IMG/VR virus record: IMGVR_UViG_3300009790_000015
Coordinates: 1 to 49,456 of that record
Origin: a virus
Direction: 5' to 3' (one strand)
DNA: 49,456 nucleotides
Made by a program: the position numbers and the translations under genes. Numbering within the stretch: position 1 is the first letter of the stretch; the number at the start of each line of letters is the position of its first letter. This document shows positions 21,841 to 34,533 of the stretch, piece after piece. The notes under the pieces were generated by a model. That model was not told the origin of the DNA. It ran no database searches and saw only the letters and a program-made list of their open reading frames with translations.

Positions 21841-22029
21841 TTAATCCGTACTCTCCTTGTAATCTTCAGGCTTAATTTTATCTAACCTCTGCTTTATCAT
21901 CTTAATTGCAATAGCCTTTTCAGCTTCCATCGCTTGCATATACTGATCAAAGTCTAAATCATCTGGCAATTCATCTATAAACCCTTGTGCGATTACATCA
22001 TATACAATATATTTATCTTTCTTATCCAT
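21841..22029 (-). CDS. Small acidic helical protein, first gene of the late arm (62 aa)
   Basis: A 62-residue protein (MDKKDKYIVYDVIAQGFID to KPEDYKESTD), mostly charged helix with LDFDQYMQAMEAEKAI. It is the first minus-strand gene before the terminase genes, separated from them by a 200-nt gap with an inverted repeat. The upstream AAAGGAGAG-like sequence is on the other strand; its own start has no strong ribosome site. Function unknown; a regulator of the late arm is possible from position only. Confidence 0.5.
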   Translation of the reverse strand: MDKKDKYIVYDVIAQGFIDELPDDLDFDQYMQAMEAEKAIAIKMIKQRLDKIKPEDYKESTD

Positions 22030-22406
22030 AAAATAATATACAAAAGGAGAGTGCTACTTTCAAAACTATATTTAGAGTGGGTGTGAAAGAGAATGATTAA
22101 ACCCACACCCCCTGAATGTAGGGTTGGTGGGGTTCGATTAGGTTGAGTTGAGTTGGTTACATTGAACTTAAGTCACTCAACCCAAGTCTCACCCCACCAA
22201 TAGGTGTACCCACCCATAGTCCTCTCTTACTCAGGTCCTCCCCCTGTCGTATACACGACAGCCCTCGGATCCGAGAAGAGATGGTCTATGAACGATTAAC
22301 TCATTCCCCTTAGATAGGTTAGAATCAGCTATGTTATTGATAAAACCATACACACTCTTACGAGTGCTCTTGTTTTATGTTAAGATTAATTTGATTGGAG
22401 AATATT
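22030..22406 (+). ncRNA. Structured gene-free divergence region with GC-rich stems
   Basis: These 377 nt lie between the divergent arms and carry no convincing gene. Exact pairings include GGGTGTG 22079-22085 with CACACCC 22104-22110, the competing GTGGGT 22077-22082 with ACCCAC 22101-22106, a 10-bp stem 22124-22133 with 22191-22200 enclosing an 8-bp stem 22141-22148 with 22175-22182, a 7-bp hairpin 22244-22261 and the palindrome CTCGGATCCGAG at 22264-22275. The region is clearly richer in G and C than flanking genes and ends in a plus-strand hairpin and T-rich stretch. A plus-strand structured RNA is favoured; a replication origin or packaging site with the same repeats is the alternative. 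Confidence 0.6.
22353..22378 (+). terminator. Hairpin terminator with GTTTTATGTTAA linker
   Basis: CACTC at 22353-22357 pairs with GAGTG at 22362-22366, followed by CTCTTGTTTTATGTTAA. It is the weakest member of the repeated terminator-linker series and marks the 3' end of the structured divergence region. Confidence 0.55.
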
Positions 22407-22511
22407 ATGGATGAATGTATAACAGAAGGTTGTAATGAAGAAACTGCATCAGACAAGAACACTAAATGTATTGAGTGTATTTGGGATGATATATGTGATG
22501 ATGGATATTAA
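22407..22511 (+). CDS. Cys-rich microprotein, first early cassette (34 aa)
   Basis: It has 34 residues from ATG 22407, with TTGGAG 14-9 nt upstream. The sequence starts MDECITEGCNEE and has five cysteines in the pattern C-x4-C-x11-C-x2-C-x6-C, so one metal site is plausible. It is acidic. It lies between two hairpin terminators and so is a stand-alone cassette. Other members of the array have similar Cys pairs. Function unknown; an early host-takeover peptide is a guess. Confidence 0.5.
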   Translation: MDECITEGCNEETASDKNTKCIECIWDDICDDGY

Positions 22512-22517
22512 AATATA

Positions 22518-22548
22518 AGAGCATGCTATTAAAGTATGCTCTTTTTTT
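22518..22548 (+). terminator. Intrinsic terminator of the first cassette
   Basis: A 10-bp stem, AGAGCATGCT at 22518-22527 with AGTATGCTCT at 22533-22542 (one G-U pair), is followed by a 7-T run and ATGTATG. It belongs to the GAGCATACT...AGTGTGCTC family repeated through this arm. Confidence 0.85.
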
Positions 22549-22560
22549 ATGTATGATGAT

Positions 22561-22711
22561 GTTAGAACTACACAGTATAATCAAGTCATACATAACATAA
22601 CTGTGTCATAGGTGTGTTCCTAACGGGACCTACACAAGTCAGTGGGATAACAATGTCTTGTCTAACAAAGAATCCCACATTAAAGAGTAACCTTACAGTT
22701 GCTCTTTTTTT
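22561..22711 (+). ncRNA. Stand-alone structured RNA cassette with terminator
   Basis: This slot of the cassette array holds no gene. It carries stems GTTAG 22561-22565 with CTAAC 22620-22624, ACACAGT 22570-22576 with ACTGTGT 22600-22606, and GTGGGAT 22642-22648 with ATCCCAC 22672-22678. It closes with a terminator hairpin AGAGTAAC 22684-22691 with GTTGCTCT 22698-22705 and a T-run. An alternative hairpin pairs the GTGTGTTCC arm with GGGACC-TACAC. Terminators on both sides argue for a separate small RNA of about 150 nt. Confidence 0.65.
22684..22711 (+). terminator. Terminator of the 22.6-kb RNA cassette
   Basis: AGAGTAAC and GTTGCTCT form 8 pairs (one G-U) around a 6-nt loop, followed by seven T and ATGTTAAC, the recurring linker. 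Confidence 0.85.
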
Positions 22712-22740
22712 ATGTTAACTTAATTAAATGAGGATACATC

Positions 22741-22893
22741 ATGAAATTGTTAAACAAACTTGCTTATGGATTAGGACATTTTACTACAAAAGTGCCTAAA
22801 TTATCTACTGAACCAATTAAATCTATTTATAGTCATTTTAAGGAAGGTAGAGTAGACGGCAAAGCAAGAAAACAATCTGACATGAACAGTTAG
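22741..22893 (+). CDS. Basic microprotein (50 aa)
   Basis: 50 residues, MKLLNKLAYGLGHFTTKVPKL at the start and GRVDGKARKQSDMNS at the end; net positive, with an amphipathic N-terminal helix. ATGAGGAT lies upstream of the ATG. It sits alone between two terminators of the array. No family recognised. The short hydrophobic N-terminus could associate with membranes but is too short and interrupted for a clear transmembrane helix. Confidence 0.55.
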   Translation: MKLLNKLAYGLGHFTTKVPKLSTEPIKSIYSHFKEGRVDGKARKQSDMNS

Positions 22894-22899
22894 ATAATT

Positions 22900-22933
22900 A
22901 AGAGCATACTACTTGTTAGTGTGCTCTTTTTTT
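22900..22933 (+). terminator. Intrinsic terminator of the 22.74-kb cassette
   Basis: A 12-bp stem, AAGAGCATACTA at 22900-22911 with TAGTGTGCTCTT at 22917-22928, then a T-run and ATGTTAAG. Same family as the hairpins at 23231 and 23655. Confidence 0.88.
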
Positions 22934-22964
22934 ATGTTAAGCTAAATAATAAAGGAATATAACA

Positions 22965-23225
22965 ATGAAACCTTGTGAAATTAGTAATATTAGAAGTGAA
23001 ATATCTGCAATAACAGAAGTAATGAATCATAATCCCAAATTAAAACAAGATAATGATTTAGTAGATCAATTAAATGAACTTTATAATCAACTCGATGCAA
23101 TACAGAATTTCGAATCATATAGAGAAGAATATGTAGATCCATTTCAAGTGTTAGTTAGTAAAAGTAAAATGACTCATGATTATTATGATGATCCAAATGA
23201 TCCAATAATGAGTGATAGGTATTAA
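22965..23225 (+). CDS. Hypothetical acidic helical protein (86 aa)
   Basis: 86 residues starting MKPCEISNIRSEISAI, with a coiled-coil-like first half (EISAITEVMNHNP; LVDQLNELYNQLDAIQNF) and an acidic Tyr/Asp-rich end (DYYDDPNDPIMSDRY). AAGGAA precedes the ATG. It lies alone between two terminators. No known family recognised; dimer formation through the Leu-rich helix is likely. Confidence 0.6.
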   Translation: MKPCEISNIRSEISAITEVMNHNPKLKQDNDLVDQLNELYNQLDAIQNFESYREEYVDPFQVLVSKSKMTHDYYDDPNDPIMSDRY

Positions 23226-23230
23226 TAAAG

Positions 23231-23263
23231 AAGAGCATACTTTCATTAGTGTGCTCTTTTTTT
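23231..23263 (+). terminator. Intrinsic terminator, identical to the copy at 23655
   Basis: AAGAGCATACT at 23231-23241 pairs with AGTGTGCTCTT at 23248-23258; loop TTCATT; T-run to 23263. The unit with its T-run and ATG matches 23655-23690 base for base, showing recent duplication or strong constraint. Confidence 0.9.
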
Positions 23264-23285
23264 ATGAATTAACAAAGGAAATAGC

Positions 23286-23435
23286 ATGAAAAACATACTT
23301 TCACACCTTAAAAACTTCTACCATAACGACCAAGACTTTCTTAAACTTCTTGACACACTTGCTCAACTGCAAGACGACAGGAAACTTGCAGAACTTCTTG
23401 GAAAGAAAGAAAGGGAATTAAAGAGTAAGCTTTAA
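23286..23435 (+). CDS. Leu-rich microprotein with atypical codon use (49 aa)
   Basis: 49 residues, MKNILSHLKNFYHND start and a charged KKERELKSKL end. Of 12 Leu codons, ten are CTT, one CTG and one TTA, and AAC, GAC and TTC are preferred, whereas nearby genes mostly use TTA, AAT, GAT and TTT. This suggests recent arrival from another genome. The terminator stem starts inside the last codons and the stop lies in its loop, so gene and terminator form one unit. Leu spacing suggests a coiled coil. Function unknown. Confidence 0.55.
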   Translation: MKNILSHLKNFYHNDQDFLKLLDTLAQLQDDRKLAELLGKKERELKSKL

Positions 23436-23453
23436 ATAGCTTGCTCTTTTTTT
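23421..23453 (+). terminator. Terminator overlapping the 3' end of the 49-codon gene
   Basis: AAGAGTAAGC at 23421-23430 pairs with GCTTGCTCTT at 23439-23448 (one G-U). The TAA stop at 23433-23435 is in the 8-nt loop. A T-run and ATGTTAAC follow. Confidence 0.88.
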
Positions 23454-23487
23454 ATGTTAACTACAATAAAAATAGAAAGCTAATACT

Positions 23488-23649
23488 ATGCAAAAAGATA
23501 ACTGCATTAATTGCAATAAATCATATCATAAAAATAAGATATTCTATTGCAGATTTAATATGTATCCATTATGTAAAATCTGCTTTGAACATCCTTCCAA
23601 CACTAATAAAACTATTTATTATCCTAATTATTACTATCCTAATATCTAA
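23488..23649 (+). CDS. Zinc-ribbon-like microprotein (53 aa)
   Basis: 53 residues starting MQKDNCINCNKSYH, with paired cysteines CINC and CKIC plus one further Cys (FYCRF) between them, compatible with a four-Cys zinc site. The end is Tyr/Pro/Asn-rich (YYPNYYYPNI). It sits alone between terminators. A hydrophobic frame overlaps it from 23441 but starts in the terminator T-run and is judged a shadow. Likely binds nucleic acid or protein; no specific role can be given. Confidence 0.55.
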   Translation: MQKDNCINCNKSYHKNKIFYCRFNMYPLCKICFEHPSNTNKTIYYPNYYYPNI

Positions 23650-23654
23650 ATAAT

Positions 23655-23687
23655 AAGAGCATACTTTCATTAGTGTGCTCTTTTTTT
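23655..23687 (+). terminator. Intrinsic terminator, identical to the copy at 23231
   Basis: AAGAGCATACT at 23655-23665 with AGTGTGCTC from 23672, then T-run to 23687 and ATGTTA. Exact duplicate of the hairpin 424 nt upstream. Confidence 0.9.
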
Positions 23688-23718
23688 ATGTTATTGACAT
23701 TAAAATGGAGGACAATAA

Positions 23719-23823
23719 ATGGAAAAAGAACATTTGTATTGTCTATGTTGTGCAGACACTATTGACTCAATAGAGGAAAATCCTCGTGAAGTTTGTAGTG
23801 AATGTGAATCAGTAGGATTTTAA
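23719..23823 (+). CDS. Zinc-ribbon microprotein (34 aa)
   Basis: 34 residues starting MEKEHLYCLCCADT, with C-x-C-C and, 15 residues later, C-x2-C (VCSECES), a classic rubredoxin-knuckle-like arrangement for one zinc. ATGGAGGACA gives a good ribosome site. It forms one cassette of the array. Comparable tiny zinc ribbons are frequent in phages and usually of unknown function. Confidence 0.6.
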   Translation: MEKEHLYCLCCADTIDSIEENPREVCSECESVGF

Positions 23824-23830
23824 ATATAAA

Positions 23831-23864
23831 AAGAGTAAGCTACTTATTAGTTTGCTCTTTTTTT
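23831..23864 (+). terminator. Intrinsic terminator of the 34-aa zinc-ribbon cassette
   Basis: A 12-bp stem, AAGAGTAAGCTA at 23831-23842 with TAGTTTGCTCTT at 23848-23859 (two G-U pairs), T-run, then GTGTTA in place of ATGTTA. Confidence 0.87.
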
Positions 23865-23893
23865 GTGTTATATTAATAAAATATGAGGATATT

Positions 23894-24097
23894 ATGGAAA
23901 AAACGATAAATACCTTTAAACACATAAAAAGTATCGTAAATGATTATTTATATGATTTGTGGTATAGTGAAAATGGAGAAGATTTAGAAATCAAGTTTGC
24001 AGAAAGTGGAGCAAGTAAAGAGCTTGATTTTGATGAAGAAGAAGAGATTTTAAAAGAGTGGAAGAAATTTAAAGATGAAATGGAAATATTGGTGTAA
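23894..24097 (+). CDS. Hypothetical acidic protein (67 aa)
   Basis: 67 residues from the ATG at 23894, which has ATGAGGAT upstream; the longer frame from 23852 starts inside the T-run and is rejected. The protein opens MEKTINTFKHIKSIVNDYL and ends in an acidic helix (EEEEILKEWKKFKDEME). The first 20 residues resemble those of the next cassette gene (KSVLNDYI), so the two may be distant relatives. Function unknown. Confidence 0.55.
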   Translation: MEKTINTFKHIKSIVNDYLYDLWYSENGEDLEIKFAESGASKELDFDEEEEILKEWKKFKDEMEILV

Positions 24098-24104
24098 GTA
24101 GGAT

Positions 24105-24196
24105 AAAGAGAGTAAAGGTAACCGTTATAATCGGTGTGTGCTTATATATAAGTAACTCAAATTGTGTGAAATTCACGATACTTTTGCTCTTTTTTT
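24105..24196 (+). ncRNA. Branched RNA element closed by a terminator stem
   Basis: AAAGAG at 24105-24110 pairs with CTCTTT at 24187-24192, with AAAG/CTTT support inside. The interior has ACCG...CGGT, CTTATA-TATAAG and GTG...CAC hairpins. The closing stem is directly followed by more T and ATGTAA, so the terminator of this cassette seems to have been expanded by an inserted multi-branch domain. No gene fits here. Confidence 0.5.
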
Positions 24197-24218
24197 ATGT
24201 AAACTAAAAGGAGATATA

Positions 24219-24452
24219 ATGAAAGAATTAGGATATTATAAATCAGTATTAAATGATTACATATGTAAATATAACCCAACATTGGGTATTCATAGATTTA
24301 CAATAGATTGCATAGGTAATCCACTTGAAATATCTAATCATAATAATTCAATAATAAAACCATATTTACCTTATATTAATAGTTTTACTAAATTATTGTG
24401 TAAAGGTAAAATGTGTGATAGGTATATACTTAAAAAGGGTAAGCTTGTATAG
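24219..24452 (+). CDS. Hypothetical protein (77 aa)
   Basis: 77 residues from ATG 24219 with AAAGGAGAT upstream; a longer frame from 24162 runs through the preceding RNA element and is rejected. It begins MKELGYYKSVLNDYI, similar to the start of the previous cassette gene, and ends in a basic KGKMCDRYILKKGKLV. Its last codons and stop are part of the following terminator stem-loop. Function unknown. Confidence 0.55.
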   Translation: MKELGYYKSVLNDYICKYNPTLGIHRFTIDCIGNPLEISNHNNSIIKPYLPYINSFTKLLCKGKMCDRYILKKGKLV

Positions 24453-24466
24453 CTTGCTCTTTTTTT
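24436..24466 (+). terminator. Terminator overlapping the end of the 77-codon gene
   Basis: AGGGTAAGCT at 24436-24445 pairs with AGCTTGCTCT at 24451-24460 (two G-U). The TAG stop at 24450-24452 lies at the loop. T-run and ATGTATAAC follow. Confidence 0.83.
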
Positions 24467-24496
24467 ATGTATAACAATCGTTATATTCCTAATATC

Positions 24497-24637
24497 TTCT
24501 ATAAAGCCAAGTAGTTTAGAGTAGATGTGTCAATCAATACCAATAGTAAACTCTATCCTATTTGGCTTCCTACTTGCTATCTTAAAAAAACGAATACTAA
24601 AAAACCCCTATTACTAAATAGCCAACTCTTTTTTTTT
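24497..24637 (+). ncRNA. Structured gene-free cassette, RNA candidate
   Basis: This 200-nt slot without a gene has AAGCCAA 24504-24510 with TTGGCTT 24562-24568, TAGAGT 24517-24522 with ACTCTA 24550-24555, and a competing AAGTAG 24509-24514 with CTACTT 24570-24575. It ends with CTCTTTTTTTTTGTTAA at about 24627-24640. The pairings enclose one domain; the terminator half-stem has no clear partner. A small RNA or an RNA switch with two states is possible. Confidence 0.5.
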
Positions 24638-24669
24638 GTTAATTTAATTAAATTGTGGAGGGTAAAGTT

Positions 24670-24954
24670 ATGTTAAAAGGAACCTATTGGATTATGAAAG
24701 AAAATGAATCTAATGAAAAAGTCTTACAATCAGACCCTGATTTTAAAGATAGAATCAAAGATGTAGATTTAGTTTCAATTCCTGTAAAGGACAATAATCT
24801 ATCAAGCGATCCTAACCAACAACCTGATGTATTAAATACATTAAGGGATAAGTTGGAGTTTAAAGGCAACATAAGAATGTCATCAAGTGGCAAATCTTGG
24901 AATTTATTCAGAGATGAGCTTGAACAAGATGATTTATCTGTAATGCCTGTATAG
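24670..24954 (+). CDS. Hypothetical protein (94 aa)
   Basis: 94 residues from ATG 24670, preceded by GGAGG at 24657-24661; a GTG at 24655 would place the ribosome site inside the gene and is rejected. It starts MLKGTYWIMKENESNE; the middle is Asp/Pro/Asn-rich and probably flexible (DNNLSSDPNQQPD), followed by a helix (NTLRDKLEFKGNIRM) and an acidic end. No family recognised. Confidence 0.6.
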   Translation: MLKGTYWIMKENESNEKVLQSDPDFKDRIKDVDLVSIPVKDNNLSSDPNQQPDVLNTLRDKLEFKGNIRMSSSGKSWNLFRDELEQDDLSVMPV

Positions 24955-24962
24955 TAATAATA

Positions 24963-24996
24963 GAGAGCCTCAAAGAACCGAGGCTCTCTTTTTTTT
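24963..24996 (+). terminator. Strong intrinsic terminator
   Basis: A perfect 9-bp stem, GAGAGCCTC at 24963-24971 with GAGGCTCTC at 24980-24988, loop of 8 nt, then eight T and CGTTAAC. The most canonical terminator in the window. Confidence 0.93.
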
Positions 24997-25027
24997 CGTT
25001 AACTACTAATTAGCTCTAAGGAGAAAT

Positions 25028-25549
25028 ATGTCAATATTAGAGAAAAATGCATTGAAATTGGAGAAGTTCAGAAAATTCATGCTAAAAAAAGGATATACTT
25101 ATTTAACAGTATATTATGATGGAGGTGGTGATAGTGGTGAATGTTATGAAATGGAAGGTCATAAGTCATCAGATATACCAGAAGAACATGTGGCTGAAGC
25201 AGCTCGTCCAAATAAGTGGAATGATTCAACTAACGATTTTCAAAAAGTATCAGAAAAAGAATCATATTCACATTGTACTAACAATCAATGGGATGTGCTT
25301 CAATCAATAAGACAATACAATAAAGAAAATAACGAAAATGTTGATGAATGGACTTTAATAGAATGTATTAATTATGACTGGTATAATGATAATGGTGGTC
25401 AAGGCAGATTGGTGTTTGATTTAAAAAAGGGTATTTTAATTGTTTTCGGTGAAGAGAATACAAGAAGTTGTATTTTCAGAGTAGAAAAACATAAAATAAA
25501 TGGTGAAAGTACATACATAAATAATGATCATGAAATGCCTCAAGCATGA
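25028..25549 (+). CDS. DUF6878-like protein (173 aa)
   Basis: A 173-residue protein with the pattern YYDGGGDSGECYEMEG at about 30-45 and a later DWYNDNGGQGRLVFDLKKG. These two blocks, YxGxGDSG and a W-x-N-x-x-GG-x-G motif before beta strands, recall a family I know as DUF6878, found in phages and mobile elements; the family name is from memory. ATG follows AAGGAGA. Its stop overlaps the start of a DUF6915-like gene by 4 nt, and that pairing also occurs elsewhere. Molecular function is unknown. Confidence 0.65.
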   Translation: MSILEKNALKLEKFRKFMLKKGYTYLTVYYDGGGDSGECYEMEGHKSSDIPEEHVAEAARPNKWNDSTNDFQKVSEKESYSHCTNNQWDVLQSIRQYNKENNENVDEWTLIECINYDWYNDNGGQGRLVFDLKKGILIVFGEENTRSCIFRVEKHKINGESTYINNDHEMPQA

Positions 25550-25896
25550 AATCATGGCATCATTGTAAGTCAAGTGTTAGACATTTCGGTGGAATAGAAG
25601 AAGATTATATCAAAATACATCAATGGTTTGATAGAACTAAAGATCATTATGCTGATATAAGACACAGAGCTTTAAGGCATCATACTCTTGGTATAAAACA
25701 ATGTGAAGATAAATTCGGTGAAGTTATATGTAACGCTGATAATAAATGGGTACCAGTTAGATCCATTGCAGAGCAACATATACGAGAAGACATTGGTTTT
25801 ATACCATCAGTTCAAGATTGGCTTAAAGAAATGAAACCAGCTAAGTGGATGGTTAGCACAAGAAAGAACATATTAAAAACAAGAAAACTAATGTAA
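25546..25896 (+). CDS. DUF6915-like protein (116 aa)
   Basis: A 116-residue, His/Trp-rich protein that follows a distinctive family pattern: WHHCKSSVRHFGG at the start, IHQWFDRTKDHYAD, HRALRHHTLGI, an FG segment, then AEQHIREDIGFIPSVQDWL. This matches the family I recall as DUF6915, usually 100-120 residues, in phages and integrative elements. The conserved His, Asp and Glu could form a metal site, but no activity is known. It overlaps the previous gene by ATGA. Confidence 0.75.
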   Translation: MKSWHHCKSSVRHFGGIEEDYIKIHQWFDRTKDHYADIRHRALRHHTLGIKQCEDKFGEVICNADNKWVPVRSIAEQHIREDIGFIPSVQDWLKEMKPAKWMVSTRKNILKTRKLM

Positions 25897-25897
25897 T

Positions 25898-26059
25898 ATG
25901 TGTCAAACAGATAAATATTTAAGCATTTGCTGTGGAGCAATACCAGATCTAAAACATATATATGAAAAAGGTAATGGTGTGTGTAGTAAATGCTTAAAAT
26001 CTTCAAGTTTTTGGGATAAATACGATAACAAAGAATATGAAGATGGAGAATATTATTAG
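25898..26059 (+). CDS. Zinc-ribbon microprotein (53 aa)
   Basis: 53 residues starting MCQTDKYLSICCGAIP, with CC at 11-12 and CSKC at 29-32, a CCGA-type phage zinc ribbon with an acidic Tyr-rich tail (EYEDGEYY). Starts one base after the DUF6915-like stop and is followed by the large terminator element. Nucleic-acid or protein binding is likely, role unknown. Confidence 0.6.
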   Translation: MCQTDKYLSICCGAIPDLKHIYEKGNGVCSKCLKSSSFWDKYDNKEYEDGEYY

Positions 26060-26067
26060 TTTTAAAG

Positions 26068-26159
26068 AAGAGAGCCAATATAACTGGTCCTGTAAGTCCT
26101 AATGTTAAGCTACTTAGTAGAGGCTTAGGCAAAGGAATATGTGAGGCTCTCTTTTTTTT
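26068..26159 (+). terminator. Terminator with a 68-nt structured insertion in its loop
   Basis: AAGAGAGCC at 26068-26076 pairs perfectly with GGCTCTCTT at 26145-26153, followed by a T-run and GTTAATT. Instead of a short loop there are 68 nt with nested pairings (CCTAA...TTAGG, AAGC...GCTT, CTA...TAG). The stem resembles the compact terminator at 24963, so this looks like the same element enlarged by an inserted RNA domain. Confidence 0.7.
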
Positions 26160-26190
26160 TGTTAATTCTAATAATTGTGGAGGATAAATA

Positions 26191-26367
26191 ATGGCTAAAG
26201 TAACAGTAATGCATATGGGTGAAAAAGAGTTTTATAAAAGAATGAAACTGATAAATAATTATTTGTCAGGTTCTGAAAGATTCTTAATTTACGAAACAGC
26301 TTCTTGCTTTAATAATCATGGAGCAAGTATTGTAGAAAAAGCAATGAATGGAGGTAGTGATGAGTAA
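26191..26367 (+). CDS. Hypothetical protein (58 aa)
   Basis: 58 residues from ATG 26191 with GTGGAGGAT upstream. It starts MAKVTVMHMGEKEFYKR and ends AMNGGSDE. Mixed helix with a short hydrophobic RFLIYETASCF segment. The gene opens a five-gene overlapping block and overlaps the next gene by 8 nt (ATGAGTAA). Function unknown. Confidence 0.55.
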   Translation: MAKVTVMHMGEKEFYKRMKLINNYLSGSERFLIYETASCFNNHGASIVEKAMNGGSDE

Positions 26368-26539
26368 AATGAATAATATAATAATAGATTTTCTTCAAGA
26401 TGGAGGAAGAGATCTAGGATATGATGAAGATAACATGCCTGATATAAAAGATTTAGATGTTGTGCTAAATCATAGTGTTAATATATGGGAATACCATGGT
26501 AAAACCCATAAAGAATACTATGGAGGTAAAGATGAATAA
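26360..26539 (+). CDS. Hypothetical acidic protein (59 aa)
   Basis: 59 residues from ATG 26360, preceded by GGAGG at 26350-26354; the upstream ATG at 26348 would hide that site and is rejected. Acidic (DGGRDLGYDEDNMPDIKD), ends GKTHKEYYGGKDE. Overlaps both neighbours by 8 nt with matching ATGAxTAA junctions. Function unknown. Confidence 0.55.
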   Translation: MSKMNNIIIDFLQDGGRDLGYDEDNMPDIKDLDVVLNHSVNIWEYHGKTHKEYYGGKDE

Positions 26540-26804
26540 ATTAGCATTCTTTACAGCATTATCTAAATGTTTTGGATATATAACTTGGGCAGCATCAAAT
26601 GCAGTCACATTAGTTACAAAGGTAAGCCAAAAAACTATTGATACATTCAATCCAGCTGAAAGATATGATGTGGAAATATTTAATAAATCTGAGCAAATAG
26701 ACAAAAGAGAAAACATAAGTCATTCTCAATTAATTAAATTAATAAAATCAATAGATGTATTTCCATCTTTATCATTAATTGTAAGCAAAAGAAATGATCT
26801 ATAA
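26532..26804 (+). CDS. Hypothetical protein with N-terminal hydrophobic helix (90 aa)
   Basis: 90 residues from ATG 26532 with TGGAGGTAAAG upstream. The N-terminus MNKLAFFTALSKCFGYITWAAS is moderately hydrophobic, then a helical, charged C-terminal half (FNKSEQIDKRENISHSQ). Possibly membrane-associated. The last 11 nt overlap the next gene. Family not recognised. Confidence 0.55.
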   Translation: MNKLAFFTALSKCFGYITWAASNAVTLVTKVSQKTIDTFNPAERYDVEIFNKSEQIDKRENISHSQLIKLIKSIDVFPSLSLIVSKRNDL

Positions 26805-27045
26805 TTACTTTGTAGGAGATACAAAAGGATGGGTTGAGGTCAGGAAAGATGAGCTTGCAAAAGCAAACATACTTGACCTCATCTCTACTTGTAGTTATGA
26901 AAAAGGGAAGTATGTATATCTAGACGAAGATATAGATTTCTCTTTTTTTTTGTATATATTTAACGAATATACAGAGTTAAACAAAATAGAAATTAAAGAT
27001 AATCATTTTGACAATTACAATAAATATAGAGGAGGATTACAATGA
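26794..27045 (+). CDS. Hypothetical protein (83 aa)
   Basis: 83 residues, MIYNYFVGDTKGWVEVRKDE, with a beta-rich first half and an acidic YVYLDEDIDFSFFLYIF stretch. Overlaps the previous gene by 11 nt and the next by 4 nt (ATGA). No known domain recognised. Confidence 0.5.
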   Translation: MIYNYFVGDTKGWVEVRKDELAKANILDLISTCSYEKGKYVYLDEDIDFSFFLYIFNEYTELNKIEIKDNHFDNYNKYRGGLQ

Positions 27046-27251
27046 GTGCAAGAGCAGCAATAATAAGAACAGTATTTAATATAGAAAACAAGTTTGACGA
27101 TATAAGAATAATGAACAGGTATGAATTAAAATCTTATATCAAACAAAATAGATCTATTCAAGTAAAAATAATGAGCAGAAATTACTCAGAAAGTGATAGA
27201 ATGGTATCATCAAAAGTAATATATGCAAAGAATAGATTAAGATTAATGTAA
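27042..27251 (+). CDS. Small basic hypothetical protein (69 aa)
   Basis: 69 residues, basic (Arg/Lys-rich), MSARAAIIRTVFNIENKF start and KVIYAKNRLRLM end, behind a GGAGGATTACA ribosome site that lies in the previous gene. The charge pattern suggests nucleic-acid binding, but no motif is recognised. It is the last gene before the large structured RNA region. Confidence 0.5.
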   Translation: MSARAAIIRTVFNIENKFDDIRIMNRYELKSYIKQNRSIQVKIMSRNYSESDRMVSSKVIYAKNRLRLM

Positions 27252-27963
27252 AAGTTGTCTGGCATATACAGGATCAGTTTAAATGCATCTCGAGAGCACT
27301 GACAAAATATGCCAACCATTATAAACCGAGGTGATGGAGGGAGATAGTGGTCAACAATTACGGAACAAGCTATCGAGGAAAAAGTGTAGGTTTATATAAC
27401 ATTAATAGATGAGGTTCAAGAGATATACTTGAGACGGAGGTGATGAGTATAGGTACCAGGAGAATGCCCTGCGTGTAGTCTATTAATAACAAGTAGTCAT
27501 AGCGCTGTATTAACTAAGTCTAGTGCTCAGCCAAATTATCGATGTGGTTGTAGATCTAAGCCTCATGGGCAAGTCCCATGGACGAAGACTTCGCAAAACA
27601 GATAAGTAGGGTTACAGTTGCATTGACTACATTAATAAATTTTGAGAGATAGTGCGTAACCTGCAGGTAGACGAATGACCATAAGCTTCGCGTCATTTAC
27701 TATCTCTCACAAACTTAGTCCAACTCTGAAACAAAGGAATGAAGAGGTAAGGATAATACAGGGAGTATTGCGGATGATTACTTTGGCGCCTCCATAATAA
27801 CAGAGCATGCTCATTACCTGTGGGAGACCGACATATCTTTGCTCAACAGGCTCAGTAGTAGAAGAATGGTTCGCCTCCAAAGATTAAAAAGAGAATAATA
27901 ACATAGTAATCGTTAAAACAACTAGTATCCTCCAGTTGAAAAAAGTTATTGTTCTCTTTTTTT
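27252..27963 (+). ncRNA. Large structured RNA candidate (about 710 nt)
   Basis: A gene-free stretch of 742 nt between two complete genes, much of it in exact inverted repeats: GGCATAT 27261 with ATATGCC 27307; TATAAACC 27320-27327 with GGTTTATA 27389-27396 enclosing GATAG/CTATC; TCAAG/CTTGA at 27416-27432; CATGGG/CCCATG near 27564-27580; an 11-bp stem 27643-27653 with 27699-27709 enclosing AATGAC/GTCATT; AATAC/GTATT at 27755-27769; AGGTAA/TTACCT; CTTTGG 27781 with CCAAAG 27877; and a final 15-bp terminator stem. It also looks richer in G and C than its flanks. Size, branching and phage setting recall large ornate RNAs such as GOLLD or ROOL, but I cannot assign a class. Group I intron was considered and not supported. 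Confidence 0.75.
27888..27963 (+). terminator. Long-stem terminator of the large RNA
   Basis: AAAGAGAATAATAAC at 27888-27902 pairs with GTTATTGTTCTCTTT at 27945-27959 (15 pairs, one G-U). The 42-nt interior contains hairpin CAACT 27919-27923 with AGTTG 27934-27938 whose loop ends in CCTCC. T-run and ATGTTATG follow. Confidence 0.88.
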
Positions 27964-27993
27964 ATGTTATGAATTAATAAATGGAGGTATAAA

Positions 27994-28335
27994 ATGGCTA
28001 AAATAGGCAAAAAAGAATACGATCTAAATGATCCAAAAGAATGTACTCAGTATTGGACAGAATATGCAGCTAAAATATTAGTTGGTAAAACAATTACAAA
28101 GGTTGGATATTTAAATAGCAAGGAATGTGAAAGAGATTTTGGTTGGTATAAAAGACCAATTACTTTTACATTAAATACTGGAGAAATTGTTATAGCACAA
28201 ATGGATGATGAAGGTAATGATGGTGGGGTATTGCTAGTAGAATATCCAGGAGAAACTGTTGAATATAAACACACTCCAGGTATAAAGTTTCCAAAAACCT
28301 CTACATTACCTGTATTAAGTACAGACGATGTGTAA
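27994..28335 (+). CDS. Conserved phage-type hypothetical protein (113 aa)
   Basis: 113 residues starting MAKIGKKEYDLNDPKE. The core LVGKTITKVGYLNSKECERDFGWYKRPITFTLNTG followed by QMDDEGNDGGVLLVEY matches a pattern seen in many phage proteins of 80-120 residues (L-x-G-K-x-I, gWY-x-RP, DDEGNdgG), a small beta fold of unknown role. ATGGAGGTA lies upstream. First gene after the large RNA. It overlaps the next start by 8 nt. Confidence 0.65.
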   Translation: MAKIGKKEYDLNDPKECTQYWTEYAAKILVGKTITKVGYLNSKECERDFGWYKRPITFTLNTGEIVIAQMDDEGNDGGVLLVEYPGETVEYKHTPGIKFPKTSTLPVLSTDDV

Positions 28336-28555
28336 ATACTATTTAAATAAATCAAGAAAATATAAAAAGTTATTAAAACAAAATAAAGATGGAGTTTTTG
28401 TAAACACAGATCATAGGTTTGTAGGTAAAGTGCAGCTTAAAAGTGGAGCTGTGCTTAATATAAAGTTACATGAAGCATACAAGCCAGGAGGACCAACTGG
28501 AACAATAACAAAAAATCCAAATAAGATGATAATTGACATTAAGGAGAAAAAATGA
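28328..28555 (+). CDS. Basic hypothetical protein (75 aa)
   Basis: 75 residues, Lys-rich, starting MCKYYLNKSRKYKKLLK, then a beta-type segment (FVGKVQLKSGAVLNIKLHEAY) and a GPTGT turn. Overlaps the previous gene by 8 nt and the next by ATGA. Could bind nucleic acid by charge. Not recognised. Confidence 0.55.
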   Translation: MCKYYLNKSRKYKKLLKQNKDGVFVNTDHRFVGKVQLKSGAVLNIKLHEAYKPGGPTGTITKNPNKMIIDIKEKK

Positions 28556-28704
28556 GCAAAATAATAAAAGAAGTTTCAAGATTAACTACAGAATGTTGTG
28601 ATAGAACGCCACTTATTGAAGTTCATGATAATGAATGTTGGTCTTTATGGGAGTTTTGTCCAAATTGCCTTGATGCTTATGGTGTAAAAGAAATAGGAGA
28701 TTAA
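28552..28704 (+). CDS. Zinc-ribbon microprotein (50 aa)
   Basis: 50 residues, MSKIIKEVSRLTTECCDR start, CC at 15-16, Cys at 29 and FCPNCLDAYG with C-x2-C at 36-39, giving a four-Cys zinc site. AAGGAGAA lies upstream in the previous gene. Fourth or fifth tiny zinc-ribbon of the early arm. Function unknown. Confidence 0.6.
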   Translation: MSKIIKEVSRLTTECCDRTPLIEVHDNECWSLWEFCPNCLDAYGVKEIGD

Positions 28705-28705
28705 A

Positions 28706-29029
28706 ATGCGTAAATCATTAAAAACTGAAATATTGAATATAGATGGAGATTACCATATATACGAAGGTATGGGTAAATATCATGGTAAGAAATATGAAGT
28801 TCAAATAATAAGAGAAACATACCAGCCAAGTAAAAACGAAAATAGAATACCAGTATTATGGGTTGATGTTCATAAAAATTGGATTGAAGACAATGATGAT
28901 GCATTTGATACTCTTAGAACAGAAATGTTTAAAAGTATGAGTGCAGCTTGTAAACATCTTGAGATTCATTTCAATTTAGATCCAAGAACAAAGAAAAAGC
29001 TAATGAAATTTAAACATTGGAGAATGTAA
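28706..29029 (+). CDS. Hypothetical protein (107 aa)
   Basis: 107 residues with an N-terminal beta part (MRKSLKTEILNIDGDYHIYEG; YHGKKYEVQIIRETY; RIPVLWVDVHKNW) and a helical C-terminal half with FDTLRTEMFKSMSAACKH and a basic end. Starts one base after the previous stop; its TAA overlaps the next ATG (TAATG). Family not recognised. Confidence 0.6.
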   Translation: MRKSLKTEILNIDGDYHIYEGMGKYHGKKYEVQIIRETYQPSKNENRIPVLWVDVHKNWIEDNDDAFDTLRTEMFKSMSAACKHLEIHFNLDPRTKKKLMKFKHWRM

Positions 29030-29226
29030 TGAATGCAAAAACTAAGCTAGATGTATGGAATATAGATTATATAGATACAGGTGAATTCCAAGAAAGCTGG
29101 GAAGAAGTCCCTGATGAGGACTTATGGGAAGATGGTGAAATAGATAATCAGAAACAATTAATGGATAAAATAGAACATCATCTTTTAATAACAGGTAAAT
29201 GGAAATTAATCAGGAGAAAGCAATGA
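29029..29226 (+). CDS. Acidic hypothetical protein (65 aa)
   Basis: 65 residues from ATG 29029, which overlaps the previous stop as TAATG with GGAG upstream; a TTG at 29017 is rejected. Acidic and Trp-rich (LDVWNIDYIDTGEFQESWEE; DEDLWEDGE), ending in a helix with HHLLITGKWKLI. The acidic front could mimic DNA, as some anti-host proteins do, but that is a guess. Confidence 0.55.
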   Translation: MNAKTKLDVWNIDYIDTGEFQESWEEVPDEDLWEDGEIDNQKQLMDKIEHHLLITGKWKLIRRKQ

Positions 29227-29540
29227 GAAAAGACACGAGAAATGATTTATTAGTATTAATTAATACATTAGATAATATAGATGATTTAAGAGAAGTAAGG
29301 ACTATGGTAAAAGATAAACTTGAATCACTTGGCAGGGCAACTAAATATAACCTTGTTGCAGGTGATAAAGTGAGAATAAGTGGAAGTCCTAAGATTGAAA
29401 AAGGTAAGATTATTAAAATAAACAGAACAAAAGCAGTTGTAGATTGTTTTAATCATCATAAAGAACATATGGGAGAGTGGACTGTTCCATTTTCAATGAT
29501 AGTTAAATTAGTAAATCAAGATGAGGAAATATCAATATGA
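29223..29540 (+). CDS. Hypothetical protein with KOW/SH3-like segment (105 aa)
   Basis: 105 residues from ATG 29223 with CAGGAGAAAG upstream, ATGA overlap with the previous gene. The first 45 residues are helical (RNDLLVLINTLDNIDDLRE). The second part, LVAGDKVRISGSPKIEKGKIIKINR followed by AVVDCF and WTVPFSMIVKL, has the layout of KOW or SH3-like barrels (GDxVRI...KGxIxxI..). It may contact RNA, DNA or transcription factors. Confidence 0.6.
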   Translation: MRKDTRNDLLVLINTLDNIDDLREVRTMVKDKLESLGRATKYNLVAGDKVRISGSPKIEKGKIIKINRTKAVVDCFNHHKEHMGEWTVPFSMIVKLVNQDEEISI

Positions 29541-30349
29541 GCAATATCGGATCATGGTACGATCCAATCAGGAAAGTACCTTTAGAATATAATGGAACTA
29601 AATCTAATGCTTGGTCTGTTCAAAGAGAAGACTTAGATAATAATTCAGGCTGGAAAGAAGTAGGTGTTGTTAGTAGTAACTATTTGCTAATAAATAATAT
29701 GGAAGTAGAAGAATTAGCAAAGAGTGTAACTGATTCATCAGAATTCAAATGGGAAACAGATAAAATCTTTTGGAATGGAAGACAATTTATGTATTCCATG
29801 ATAGCAAAAGATTACAAAAGAGAAATAGCAGTAGGAGATGATGTTTCACTTGGTATAATGTTTTGGAATAGTTATGATGGATCAACAGCACTACAGTTTA
29901 AAATATTCTTACAAAGATTAGTATGTTTAAATGGAATGGTATCTAATGATATATTTGATTCATATAGATTTAAACACGATAGGTCATCTGAAGGATATGA
30001 AGATCAAATAATGGAAGCTGCAACGATAATAAATAACTCTGAAGATAATATAAGATATTTTGTAAATGGATTAAGAATGTTTTCAAATACTCCATTAGAT
30101 ATGAAGAAATTATCACATCTCAGAGAAAACTATTTAACAGGAGTACCAGTTTCTTTGTTTGGAACTATAGTAGATAAATTGTTAACTTATTCAGAGTATC
30201 CAACAGTTTATGATCTATACAATGCATCAACAAATGTATTATGGCATAAAAAGAAATCAACTAAAGCAGATTTCGATCACAATGCATATATTACAGACAG
30301 TTTAATGAAGTATTCACAAGATGCATTAAAACAAGAATATAGTAGTTAG
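29537..30349 (+). CDS. DUF932-family phage protein (270 aa)
   Basis: 270 residues with the DUF932 pattern: an N-terminal NAWSVQREDL segment, YLLINNMEVEELAKS, the central DDVSLGIMFWNSYDGSTALQ and the diagnostic FKIFLQRLVCLNGMV, then a helical end. Such proteins are common near recombination genes in phages and plasmids; a DNA metabolism role is assumed but not proven. Here it lies upstream of the ERF annealing protein, separated by a structured RNA and a terminator, and overlaps the previous gene by ATGA. Confidence 0.85.
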   Translation: MSNIGSWYDPIRKVPLEYNGTKSNAWSVQREDLDNNSGWKEVGVVSSNYLLINNMEVEELAKSVTDSSEFKWETDKIFWNGRQFMYSMIAKDYKREIAVGDDVSLGIMFWNSYDGSTALQFKIFLQRLVCLNGMVSNDIFDSYRFKHDRSSEGYEDQIMEAATIINNSEDNIRYFVNGLRMFSNTPLDMKKLSHLRENYLTGVPVSLFGTIVDKLLTYSEYPTVYDLYNASTNVLWHKKKSTKADFDHNAYITDSLMKYSQDALKQEYSS

Positions 30350-30355
30350 AAAATA

Positions 30356-30531
30356 AGGGATAAACGACACGTCAGCGGTGAACAGCTGAGCTTAGAACAG
30401 TTCATAGTGTTTTGTTTATAAAGTAATGTCAATTAACAGTTTATCCCTAAATTTGTCGGACAAAACAGGGATGTGGAGTGGGTGCGCACGGAAGCCTAAA
30501 TAGTAAACCTCTGTTAGGACACATTCCCTGT
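30356..30531 (+). ncRNA. Two-domain structured RNA candidate
   Basis: Domain 1 is closed by a perfect 10-bp stem, AGGGATAAAC 30356-30365 with GTTTATCCCT 30439-30448, and has internal ACAC/GTGT and TCAGC/GCTGA stems. Domain 2 is closed by ACAGGGATGTG 30465-30475 with CACATTCCCTGT 30520-30531 (one bulge) and contains the palindrome GTGCGCAC 30483-30490 and CCTAA/TTAGG. A terminator follows at 30542. No gene fits. It could be a trans-acting RNA or a leader of the recombination operon. Confidence 0.7.
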
Positions 30532-30541
30532 TGAAAAAGAG

Positions 30542-30585
30542 AAGAGAGCTTTCTATGAATTAGATCGATTAAGCTCTCTTTTTCT
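30542..30585 (+). terminator. Terminator before the recombination-replication operon
   Basis: A 10-bp stem AAGAGAGCTT at 30542-30551 with AAGCTCTCTT at 30571-30580, loop of 19 nt, then TTTCTTTG. Ends the structured RNA; the ERF gene starts 52 nt later behind CGGAGG. Confidence 0.82.
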
Positions 30586-30636
30586 TTGTTTATTAGTTAA
30601 AATAATACTAAATTATAAGTCCAAATCGGAGGTATT

Positions 30637-31101
30637 ATGGAACAAAATCCAACGGAAAATCAAATTCCTAAAATAGAAAATATAGTAGAAGATCAATCGC
30701 CTACAGTAGGCAAAATAGCTAAAGCCTTAGCTAATGCACAGAAAGACATAATGGGAGCCAAGAAAGGCTCAGTAAATCCATTCTTTAAGAGTGGTTATGC
30801 AGATCTGTATGCAGTAATCGAAAGTTGTAGAGAAATATTGTCTAAGAATGAAATAGCATTTGTTCAAGGCAATAGATTCAAAAATGGTGTGTTTTTAGTA
30901 GTTACTAAATTGATACATTCATCTGGAGAATGGCTTTCAAGTGAAATAGCTTTACCAATGCCTAAGAATGCAAACGCACAAGCTATAGGTTCATTAAATA
31001 CCTATGGAAGAAGATATGGTTTAGCAGCAATGGCTGGTGTAGCACAGAAAGACGATGATGCTAATGAAGCATCTGGGATGTCACAAACAGTAAGTAAATA
31101 G
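30637..31101 (+). CDS. erf: ERF-family single-strand annealing protein
   Basis: 154 residues. The core PTVGKIAKALANAQKDIMGAKKGSVNPFFKSGYADL, with a later SKNEIAFVQG and the LNTYGRRYGLAAMAGVA segment, is the ERF superfamily signature: A-x-A-x2-[EQ], N-x-F, YADL, Y-x-x-RY-x-L. ERF proteins bind ssDNA and anneal strands, giving phages their own recombination and genome circularisation. It is shorter than P22 Erf and seems to hold only the core domain. The good ribosome site CGGAGG and the terminator upstream suggest a new transcription unit here. Confidence 0.88.
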   Translation: MEQNPTENQIPKIENIVEDQSPTVGKIAKALANAQKDIMGAKKGSVNPFFKSGYADLYAVIESCREILSKNEIAFVQGNRFKNGVFLVVTKLIHSSGEWLSSEIALPMPKNANAQAIGSLNTYGRRYGLAAMAGVAQKDDDANEASGMSQTVSK

Positions 31102-31109
31102 GAGATAAT

Positions 31110-31706
31110 ATGGAATGGGTAACAAATAGTTCTGGAGGTGGTGGAAAAGGTAAAACAAACATATTTGTAGACAAAGCTAAGATAGCAAAAGTCGAAATCA
31201 AATATGGTGTTCAAGAAGAATGGCAAACATATTGCGATGATATATCAATTCATTTGACACTTGACATCGGAAAAGATTTCCAACCTACCATGTATATAGG
31301 TGGAAATTATAAGAAAGATGATGTTAGTGGAGAAATAGTTGGTTGGTCAACAGCATTTAAGATTAAACTATTCTTTGACGCACTTGGTATGCCAATTAAA
31401 TTAGATAAAGGAATGAGTCCTAAATCAAGTAGATTACCAGCTGATGCTGAACAAATACTTATTGGGAAAGACTTTCTTAGACTAACATATGTTTCAACCA
31501 AAACTAAAAGAGATGGTGGAGCATTATGGAAAGATTGGCAAGAAACTCGTTCAGCTGCATATGATCAAAGTAAATTCAAGCAAGAATTCAAAGAAGCTGT
31601 AAGCAAAGGATATATTAAAGACTTTGCAAAAGCTACTGAAGAAGATAGTTCAGATACATCTGGACCATGGGATTCTTCAAATGAATTTGCTGGGTTGCCA
31701 ACTTAA
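31110..31706 (+). CDS. Probable ssDNA-binding or ERF-partner protein (198 aa)
   Basis: 198 residues with a Gly-rich N-terminus (SSGGGGKGKTN), a beta-rich body (KIAKVEIKYGVQEEW; DISIHLTLDIGKDFQPTMYI; DFLRLTYVSTKTKRDGG) and a flexible acidic tail (EEDSSDTSGPWDSSNEF). This layout, an OB-like body and an acidic tail, and the place right after ERF (8-nt gap) fit a phage single-strand binding protein. The DDDIPF-type tip of bacterial SSB is absent. Identification is inference. Confidence 0.55.
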   Translation: MEWVTNSSGGGGKGKTNIFVDKAKIAKVEIKYGVQEEWQTYCDDISIHLTLDIGKDFQPTMYIGGNYKKDDVSGEIVGWSTAFKIKLFFDALGMPIKLDKGMSPKSSRLPADAEQILIGKDFLRLTYVSTKTKRDGGALWKDWQETRSAAYDQSKFKQEFKEAVSKGYIKDFAKATEEDSSDTSGPWDSSNEFAGLPT

Positions 31707-31966
31707 TGAAAACCAAGGAAATGGTTCTTCGGTATACTAAGTATAGATTAGCCCAGGGTATAGATACTATATCATCAATTGATATAGAAGATAACTTACC
31801 TAAGTATGGTAAAGCTTTGTGGAACGAGACAAGGTTACCATCGGCTTATTCTAGAGAATGGCGAAGAATAAGAGAGAATAGAGAATATCTAACAGCTGGT
31901 ATAAAAGATGTTAAAGAGATTAAATCTGCTGGAGCATCTTACAAAATATGGCAACTGATAGTGTGA
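31706..31966 (+). CDS. Small basic protein of the replication operon (86 aa)
   Basis: 86 residues, MKTKEMVLRYTKYRLAQGI start, rich in Arg and Tyr (SREWRRIRENREYL), ending with a Lys-rich ASYKIWQLIV. It overlaps the previous stop by TAATG and the primase-helicase start by 19 nt. The helix-turn-like order suggests a small DNA-binding or helicase-loading factor, which is inference. Confidence 0.6.
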   Translation: MKTKEMVLRYTKYRLAQGIDTISSIDIEDNLPKYGKALWNETRLPSAYSREWRRIRENREYLTAGIKDVKEIKSAGASYKIWQLIV

Positions 31967-33723
31967 AATATATCGAATTAGCAATAGGTTCTGTATCAAA
32001 CAGAGCCTATGCTATTCGACCAGAACATATAGCAAAATACATAAAACCTAATCAAGAACTATATCGAAGTCTATTTATATTAGATAAAAGTGCATTTGAA
32101 CACTTTAGAGACAAGGGATCTATCAAGTCTTACAAAGGTACATATGCATTAAATACTATTATATTTGATATAGATAGAGGTAAGAAAACTGGTGAAGATA
32201 CTAAGCAAAGAGCATTATCATTTTATGAAACATTGCTTGAACAAGGCTTAGAAGATGATCAAATACATATATGGTTTAGTGGTAGAGGTTTTCACATAGA
32301 GATACCTAACCTTTATGGTTTTGTACCAAGTGAAAACTTACCTTATCAAGTAAAGATGACGATAGATAGTCACTTTGGTAAACTTGTTGATAATATATAT
32401 GATAAAGGTAGATTAATTCGTGTTGGCTACACAATAAATATGAAAAGTGAGCTATACAAATTACCATTATCATGGCAGATGTTAAACGATATGACATACT
32501 TAGAAATATGTGAATATTGTCAAACACAAAAACAAGACTATAACCATAGCCCATTTGATGAAGAACAAGTAACATTATGGGAAGATAAGGTTCTTGATGT
32601 TAAGGAGTTTAAAGAAGAAACTAATGCTGATGTATCTAACACTAATCTAAATGCACATGTAACTTGCATACAGAAGATGTGGAAATCAGAAAAAGAAGGT
32701 GAAAGACATATAACACTACTTAGAATGGCTAATGGTTGGCGTAGAATGGGCATTCAAAAAGAAGGTGCTATAAAGATGTCTGAATATAATATACCTTCAT
32801 TAGATCATAATGAAATTCTTAAAATTATAGATGATGTATATGCATGGGAACACAATGGATATAGTTGTAGTGATACAATTATGGAAAAGTATTGTGATCC
32901 AATATGTAAGTTCTATAAGAGAAAGAACTATGGTCTAGAAGTCTTAAATGTAAAAGAGTTATCTAATAAGTTAAGAGATTTTGTATCTATGGATATGGAT
33001 ACTAATTGCTTTAATTTAAAAGATTATTACCCAATGAATACTAACTACAGGTTTCTTCCTGGAGAATTAGCTATATTGTTAGGTGATACTAAATTAGGTA
33101 AAACTGCATGGCTTCAAAGCTTAATGGTTAAACTATCACATATGAATGTATTATATCTTTCATTGGAGGTTGGTGATTGGCTAATATTCAGAAGATTTCT
33201 TCAAGCAGGTAATGGTATTACCAAAGAAGAAGTTAATGATGTTTATAGAGATTATGACGAAGATAAAGTCAAGAAAATTAATGATAAAGTAAAACACATT
33301 AAAGTAATGACTACAAGTCCAGACATAGACTCTATGAAACAAATTATAGCTGATAATCAACCACAAGTTGTATGTATAGATACTATAGATGCAATAGAAG
33401 TTAGATATAATAATGATCCATTTACAAAGATGGAGAAAATTGTTAATAGTTTAAAACAAATAGCAACTCAAATGGATGTTATATTCTTTGGTATATCACA
33501 TATATCGAAAGGTGCTTCAAGAGATATGCTTACTGTTCATAGTGCTAAAGGTAATTCAGCAATTGAGCAAAAAGCAGATAAGATCATTGGAATACAAGGA
33601 GATAGACAAATGAATGATACTAGAGTTATTAGGTCGTTAGCATCTAGAGATGAAACTGATTTTGAAATGGCATTTAAGTTTGATTATAAAACATTTCAAT
33701 TCAAACCATTGGAGATAAAATGA
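31948..33723 (+). CDS. Fused AEP-type primase and RecA-fold replicative helicase
   Basis: 591 residues. The N-terminal part has archaeo-eukaryotic primase features: TIIFDIDRG with D74-x-D76, WFSGRGFHIEI with SGRGFH at 111-116, and RLIRVGYTINMK near 155-165. A Cys cluster follows (GYSCSDTIMEKYCDPICKFY), likely zinc or Fe-S. The C-terminal part is a DnaB/RecA-like helicase: Walker A LLGDTKLGKTAW near 378-389, Walker B VVCIDTIDAI near 474, and ISHISKGASRDM plus HSAKGNSAIEQKADKIIGI. It should prime and unwind the fork in one polypeptide. With no phage DNA polymerase in sight, it probably recruits the host polymerase. Confidence 0.9.
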   Translation: MATDSVKYIELAIGSVSNRAYAIRPEHIAKYIKPNQELYRSLFILDKSAFEHFRDKGSIKSYKGTYALNTIIFDIDRGKKTGEDTKQRALSFYETLLEQGLEDDQIHIWFSGRGFHIEIPNLYGFVPSENLPYQVKMTIDSHFGKLVDNIYDKGRLIRVGYTINMKSELYKLPLSWQMLNDMTYLEICEYCQTQKQDYNHSPFDEEQVTLWEDKVLDVKEFKEETNADVSNTNLNAHVTCIQKMWKSEKEGERHITLLRMANGWRRMGIQKEGAIKMSEYNIPSLDHNEILKIIDDVYAWEHNGYSCSDTIMEKYCDPICKFYKRKNYGLEVLNVKELSNKLRDFVSMDMDTNCFNLKDYYPMNTNYRFLPGELAILLGDTKLGKTAWLQSLMVKLSHMNVLYLSLEVGDWLIFRRFLQAGNGITKEEVNDVYRDYDEDKVKKINDKVKHIKVMTTSPDIDSMKQIIADNQPQVVCIDTIDAIEVRYNNDPFTKMEKIVNSLKQIATQMDVIFFGISHISKGASRDMLTVHSAKGNSAIEQKADKIIGIQGDRQMNDTRVIRSLASRDETDFEMAFKFDYKTFQFKPLEIK

Positions 33724-33908
33724 TTCAATACAAAAAAGTAGAAGATATTGAGAAGAATCAAATGGCTTGGTCTTTAATAATTCTCTGGTTATTTTCAGTC
33801 ACTTTGTCTTATAATATAATGAAAGGTGACCATATAACTTTTGGTATTAGCCTAGGTCCATTAGAGACTTCATTATGTTTATCTATATGGAGAAAGTTAC
33901 TACCATGA
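33720..33908 (+). CDS. Small membrane protein (62 aa)
   Basis: 62 residues with a hydrophobic segment at about 15-33 (MAWSLIILWLFSVTLSYNI), starting MIQYKKVEDIEKNQ and ending in a basic SIWRKLLP. It overlaps the helicase stop and the nuclease start by 4 nt each (ATGA). A single-span inner-membrane protein is likely. It could anchor the replication complex, act in lysis timing, or be a remnant. Not recognised. Confidence 0.55.
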   Translation: MIQYKKVEDIEKNQMAWSLIILWLFSVTLSYNIMKGDHITFGISLGPLETSLCLSIWRKLLP

Positions 33909-34249: not shown

Positions 34250-34533
34250 AAAGAAGAGACTCAATTAATTACTTAAAAAGACTTTATGTGTTATTAGACA
34301 GATTAATGGGAAGTTCATTGTTAGGTATTAAATATACCAAATCATTAAAAAGAGGTATTAATTCTTTACAAAAGAATAAACTATCTGTAGATAATGGAAC
34401 TTTTAAAGTTAATGTGAATAAAAAGAAAAACAGGATTACTGTAGATATATCACATAAAAATGGAGAATTAATAGAGTCGCATACTTACGATCAAGATAGC
34501 CTAATAGGTGAAGATATAATAGGTGAATCATAA
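34246..34533 (+). CDS. Hypothetical basic protein (95 aa)
   Basis: 95 residues; a Lys/Arg-rich helical front (MKRRDSINYLKRLYVLLDRL; KYTKSLKRGINSLQK) and a beta-strand back half (TFKVNVNKKKNRITVDISHK) with an acidic end. ATGA overlap with the nuclease gene suggests coupling. Nucleic-acid binding is plausible by charge. Family not recognised. Confidence 0.55.
   Translation: MKRRDSINYLKRLYVLLDRLMGSSLLGIKYTKSLKRGINSLQKNKLSVDNGTFKVNVNKKKNRITVDISHKNGELIESHTYDQDSLIGEDIIGES

Follow-up and report, generated by a model that had tools for sequence, protein, structure and literature searches.

The gene-free stretch at positions 27252–27963 of the window (the window being the whole 49,456-nucleotide stretch of virus DNA analysed, IMG/VR record IMGVR_UViG_3300009790_000015) on balance probably encodes a discrete phage RNA, some 710–715 nt long and non-coding, that is fused from several modules, shares the orientation of the early genes, ends in a terminator and would act in trans. 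The modules are real folded RNAs under selection; they are non-coding, mobile, and nest in one another as cassettes, and the 3′ module, M3, is not bound to one neighbouring gene.

The gene-free stretch and its surroundings

The window genome, a virus record of 49 kb, consists of two gene arms: a minus-strand arm with the structural genes (terminase, portal, capsid and tail) and a plus-strand arm in which a DUF932 protein and a primase-helicase are encoded along with many small genes. Open reading frames stop at 27251 and resume at 27994. In this gap (27252–27993) the longest frame is 40 aa on the plus strand and 57 aa on the minus strand, against a mean of 44 aa in shuffled sequences, and no conserved coding frame was found, so that the claim of an earlier, sequence-only reading that no frame explains the gap holds; its claim that the gap is richer in G+C than the surroundings is equally correct (39.3% vs 32.2% for the window). 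The same reading had described more than ten closely packed inverted repeats. For exact repeats of at least 8 bp there is indeed an excess (5 observed vs 0.9 expected, reached in 0 of 60 shuffles), but there is none at 6 bp or more (20 vs 15.6 expected), and since the folding energy of the whole region is also ordinary (z = −0.85), much of the repeat count is chance. Whole-region folding energy was rejected as evidence for a structured RNA, and the case therefore depends on relatives.

The three pairings named in that reading (27320–27327 with 27389–27396, 27643–27653 with 27699–27709, and 27781–27786 with 27877–27882) are exact, and GAGGTGATG occurs twice as claimed, at 27328 and 27437 (the second copy had been placed at 27438). 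The motifs of a further proposed pairing, GGAGGTG at 27436 and CGCCTCC at 27787 (also found at 27872), are present in the window, and CTTTGG/CCAAAG (27781/27877) is exact there; however, in the relatives one partner of each is altered or missing, and both pairings were rejected. The 3′ end of the RNA is an intrinsic terminator on the plus strand (27889–27962, z −4.8) with a U run, whose stem, running from 27886/27889 to 27962, has 17 bp and not the 15 bp first given.

Several other structured stretches lie nearby. Terminator-like sites number 17 in 22000–34500 (3.6 expected), and most of the small genes in 22517–24990 are separated by terminators of their own with the common tail CTCTTTTTTTATGTTA. 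Between the two gene arms, 22030–22350 is G+C-rich and gene-free with large hairpins, is 75–81% conserved in L007, L029, L034 and L084, and may be an origin or a terminator that works in both directions. M5 (24495–24575) is a strong hairpin (z −4.8) with the invariant loop GAUGUGUCAAUCAAUACCAAUAG, which is also found in L002, L007, L025 and L067. Behind the DUF932 gene, 30346–30545 is a second gene-free structured RNA, 66–77% conserved in L003, L004, L005, L007 and L008, with compensatory changes (CCUA/UAGG vs CCAG/CUGG) and a variable inserted hairpin.

Modules shared with related phages

Parts of the window RNA were found as separate modules in about 25 related IMG/VR contigs, which were reached via the downstream gene and the helicase, with more added via conserved RNA motifs. 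Because most of these contigs are fragments, the absence of a module from one of them means little. The order in the window is the M1 hairpin, M2, a helix domain, a core-less M4 with nested hairpin cassettes, M9, M3 and the terminator; the module map of the contigs shows that what is strung together here is kept apart in most relatives. M1 and M3 are usually near each other there, M4 lies 1–10 kb off, M5 and others are scattered, and mostly the modules are intergenic and have no terminator of their own. M1, M2 and M3 stand together in L004, L029 and L043; M4 is upstream of M1-M2-M3 in L004/L064 and directly after M3 in L030, and in the window the shortened M4 and M9 are placed between M2 and M3. 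In BLAST searches of named phages neither the window RNA nor an M3–M4 stretch had a match, and among plasmids, searched with the window RNA, there was none either. Among 84,980 reference genomes the single match is a 46,061-base contig (L004) of the Prochlorococcus single-cell genome AG-436-M02. Since such assemblies may contain infecting phages or co-sorted cells (PMC6122165), Prochlorococcus is the likely, though unproven, host. The host sign psbA is absent from all 14 phage records tested; the virus is marine and probably cyanobacterial.

M3 (27714–27884, plus strand) consists of a 5′ hairpin, a long helix (ACAGG/CCUGU in the window) and a closing helix (GGAG..CGACAU/AUGGUUCG.CUCC). The M3 covariance model, made from 5 seed sequences with the window left out, matches the window over its full length at 27745–27884 (69.5 bits, E 9.7e-12), with the long helix, the closing helix and the conserved UCG.CC.AAAG end by which the family is defined; there are 26 matches besides the window, the 5 seeds included, and on whole contigs exactly one M3 copy was found in 17 of 19. 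An initial MAFFT alignment of all M3 sequences misplaced the long helix, and a structure-guided model was used in its place. In the resulting alignment of 23 distinct sequences, which was fitted to the proposed structure and favours it, 93% of cells are paired and 18 of the 22 pairs have changed on both sides; none of 500 shuffles was as good, and slid partners were at most 51% paired. For example, the long helix is GACC/GGUC, GUGUG/CACAC or GUACAU/AUGUAC in different phages; the junction UGAYCAC..AAUAACA is single-stranded and highly conserved. It can be argued that the fitting does not explain the covariation, because of the slid and shuffled controls and because the helices can be read directly. 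The covariation among homologues that the sequence-only reading had called for is found in both M3 and M4. M3 alone folds no better than its shuffles (z +0.6). By approximate gene calls its downstream neighbours belong to at least 9 gene families and its upstream neighbours to more than 10, and its single copy beside many different genes therefore speaks for an RNA that stands alone and against the leader of a single gene. Directly 3′ of M3, a terminator-like stem with its T run is present in the window, L004, L007 and L029, as would fit a 3′ domain that completes an RNA. A further structured stretch of roughly 300 nt lies behind M3 in L072 (6900–7215) and L002 (4460–4770), with AGCCUCA..UGGACGAAG and the conserved end GUGUGGA..UCCUUCAUUACUACACCACACACUAGUUU.

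In its typical form M4 folds as a three-way junction whose core hardly varies, and its covariance model gave 20 matches. In the M4 alignment, likewise fitted to the structure that it thereby favours, 99.1% of cells are paired and 9 of 18 pairs have changed on both sides, counts reached by 0 of 500 shuffles. M4 often comes immediately after the DUF6915 gene; by approximate gene calls, this gene precedes it in 12 of 19 cases. The window has a deletion variant (27493–27633, plus strand, fold z −2.8), matched by the model at 27469–27641 with 29.2 bits (E 0.0039 in 469 kb, 4e-4 in the window record): set against the family definition of closing helix and three-way-junction core, helices P1 and P3 are kept, with the closing GUAGUC/GACUAC and the inner GCGCUGUA/UACAGUUGC, and the conserved core GUCAGUCACGG..UAAGAGAACCUGUAUGG is lost. 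Because the core is missing and only the closing and inner helices remain, this M4 reads as a remnant or scaffold, probably just a scaffold remnant. Inside it lies the M7 cassette (27538–27605, plus strand; AUCGAUGUGGUUGUAGA...CUUCGCAAAACAGAU), and inside M7 the M6 hairpin cassette (27560–27588, plus strand; GCCUCAUGGGCAAGUCCCAUGGACGAA). In L038, M7 is free-standing upstream of M4 and carries a plain CCGAAAGG hairpin; in L034, M6 sits directly in M4, and it also occurs in another RNA of L014, L015, L023 and L060. The same hairpin units have been inserted by different phages at variable helices, both in M4 and in other RNAs, and the nesting of these cassettes illustrates clearly how RNA evolves in nature via whole-hairpin exchange.

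M1 (27258–27315, plus strand, fold z −2.6) is a three-storey hairpin present in about 15 related contigs, with the outer stem UGGCAUAU/AUAUGCCA and the apical-loop palindrome UCUCGAGA; its outer stem covaries (UGGCAUAC/GUAUGCCA vs UGGUAUAC/GUAUACCA in relatives). In loop segments picked by eye, a palindrome of at least 6 nt is present in 8 of 10 variants and missing from 2 (2.3 expected, p 0.0002; p 0.003 with one variant per distinct palindrome); this test was restricted by position because a palindrome test of the whole inner loop gave no information. The palindromes are 6–8 nt long and differ in their letters (UCUCGAGA, ACUGCAGU, UCUGCAGA, GCUAUAGC, UGUGCACA, CGCGCG and others), which by analogy hints at possible dimerisation through kissing loops between two copies; short hairpin stems could account for part of them. 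M2 (27318–27398, plus strand) is closed by UAUAAACC/GGUUUAUA between the conserved flanks ACCGAGG and GAGGAAAAAGUGUAGG, and has another interior in L004/L064, L029 and L043/L082. The helix domain (UUAAUAGAU.../...GUCUAUUAA; 27402–27486, plus strand, fold z −0.6) is weak because no relative of it was found, and so far it is seen only in the window. M9 (27643–27709, plus strand, fold z −3.5) has an 11-bp stem with two palindromic-loop hairpins (ACCUGCAGGU and AAGCUU); copies 90–95% identical occur in L019, L024, L063, L068 and L069; four of these relatives have M9 immediately after M4, and in L069 it stands alone.

Possible roles of the fused RNA

The window RNA would have been built by fusion of M1, M2, M4, M9 and M3, separate intergenic elements in related phages, and its action would be in trans, either structural or as a decoy; M3 may be its functional centre, and self-association by loop-to-loop pairing between copies may fall to M1 and perhaps to M9. 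A trans-acting, possibly self-associating RNA fits best and is preferred because M3 stands beside unrelated genes, a terminator follows it and the M1 loops are palindromic. The main rival, less probable and still a serious contender, takes the modules as cis-acting mRNA elements, that is, structured spacers by which the long mRNA of the early genes is processed or is protected, for instance from host RNase E, an enzyme reported to be induced by a cyanophage infecting Prochlorococcus (PMC9692554). The modules often start from, or overlap with, the upstream stop codon and finish before the next ribosome-binding site, M4 often comes after the DUF6915 gene, many terminators stand between the early genes of the window, and in most relatives the modules, being without a terminator of their own, may be mere parts of an mRNA. 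However, the conserved single-stranded junctions of the M4 core and M3 go beyond the needs of a protective hairpin, and M3 keeps a single copy per contig among varying neighbours.

It is rather unlikely that function is now confined to M3 (and M1), with the remainder of the 715 nt left over as debris from cassette exchange. M9 would hardly have stayed so close to its copies elsewhere, M1, M2 and M3 co-occur in three contigs, and M4 has kept P1 and P3, although the deleted M4 core, the helix domain without relatives and the ordinary z-scores of several parts would suit such a scrap heap. A riboswitch or leader of the downstream gene (27994–28335) is very improbable in spite of the junction-like folds and conserved loops, for a terminator separates RNA and gene, M3 precedes many unrelated genes and no Rfam riboswitch matches.

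Comparison with known structured RNAs

A search of the window against Rfam 15 at gathering and relaxed thresholds gave no family at or above its gathering score, GOLLD and ROOL included; the sub-threshold hits, Plastid-psbA-3/4, fall on the terminator hairpin with 27–28 bits against cut-offs of 48–57. Of what the sequence-only reading had proposed, a structured non-coding RNA is supported by modules that covary and do not code, and a member of GOLLD or ROOL is not, since no model matches the window, although sister phages have GOLLD as an adjacent element; a new class is supported too, but the RNA is a fusion of several separate modules and not one class. That it is a divergent GOLLD or ROOL, as similar length, phage origin and the nearby GOLLD of sister phages might suggest, is likewise highly improbable: even with the thresholds relaxed, the covariance model of the conserved GOLLD (RF02032) 3′ domain finds nothing in the window, yet it scores 137 bits in G009, 170.5 in G021, 126.4 in G011 and 112.6 in G006, on the same strand and 0.5–1.5 kb upstream of M3 in these four sister contigs. 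In G009, GOLLD (G009:27837–28244, which is L072:5838–6245) lies just behind a tRNA-Met, and a gene stands between it and M3, the two being separate RNAs; by their L numbers, the four contigs with GOLLD are L072, L089, L090 and L091. GOLLD is next to and separate from M3 and missing from the window, and they are therefore neighbours, not one RNA. Marine GOLLD env-38 has been described downstream of a Met-tRNA (PMC12286853), and the phage group of the four contigs is a possible natural home of marine GOLLD. The window has no tRNA, so a GOLLD-like proximity to one is absent here. In another related phage contig, L076:15670–15750 gives a partial tmRNA match (60.5 bits).

ROOL (RF03087), which occurs in phages and prophages, measures about 600 nt and forms nanocages (PMC12286853), is alike in being a phage RNA of similar size; its model matched neither the window nor any of 9 contigs, a 9-contig search that had no positive control signal. 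The manA, wcaG and PhotoRC-II RNAs, mostly potential 5′ UTR elements belonging to defined genes (PMC2864571), are also structured RNAs of marine cyanophages. None of the three matches the window RNA. In the dimerisation initiation site of HIV-1 and in other kissing loops, the apical loop is a palindrome of 6–8 nt whose letters vary and whose self-complementarity stays. Its likeness to M1, whose dimerisation is putative, is an analogy only, without common descent.

More tentatively, a marine phage lineage may hold an RNA construction kit, with which trans-acting, self-associating RNAs are made from interchangeable, nestable cassettes alongside GOLLD or replacing it. At least two well-supported RNA families (M3 and M4), together with M1, are here added to phages probably infecting Prochlorococcus, beside GOLLD, the function of which is a long-standing question; and because the modules are small, self-contained and swapped between RNAs, they offer a route to dissect large phage RNAs. 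M1, M2, M3, M4 and M9 differ from GOLLD in having no sequence or model match to it, and it coexists with these RNAs as a separate element in the four contigs. A 14-mer RNA cage is the assembly characteristic of GOLLD, whose self-assembly comes about partly through loop–loop contacts (PMC12286853). GOLLD resembles the window RNA in that it is large and ornate, occurs within the same group of phages, and has a conserved 3′ domain and a variable 5′ part.
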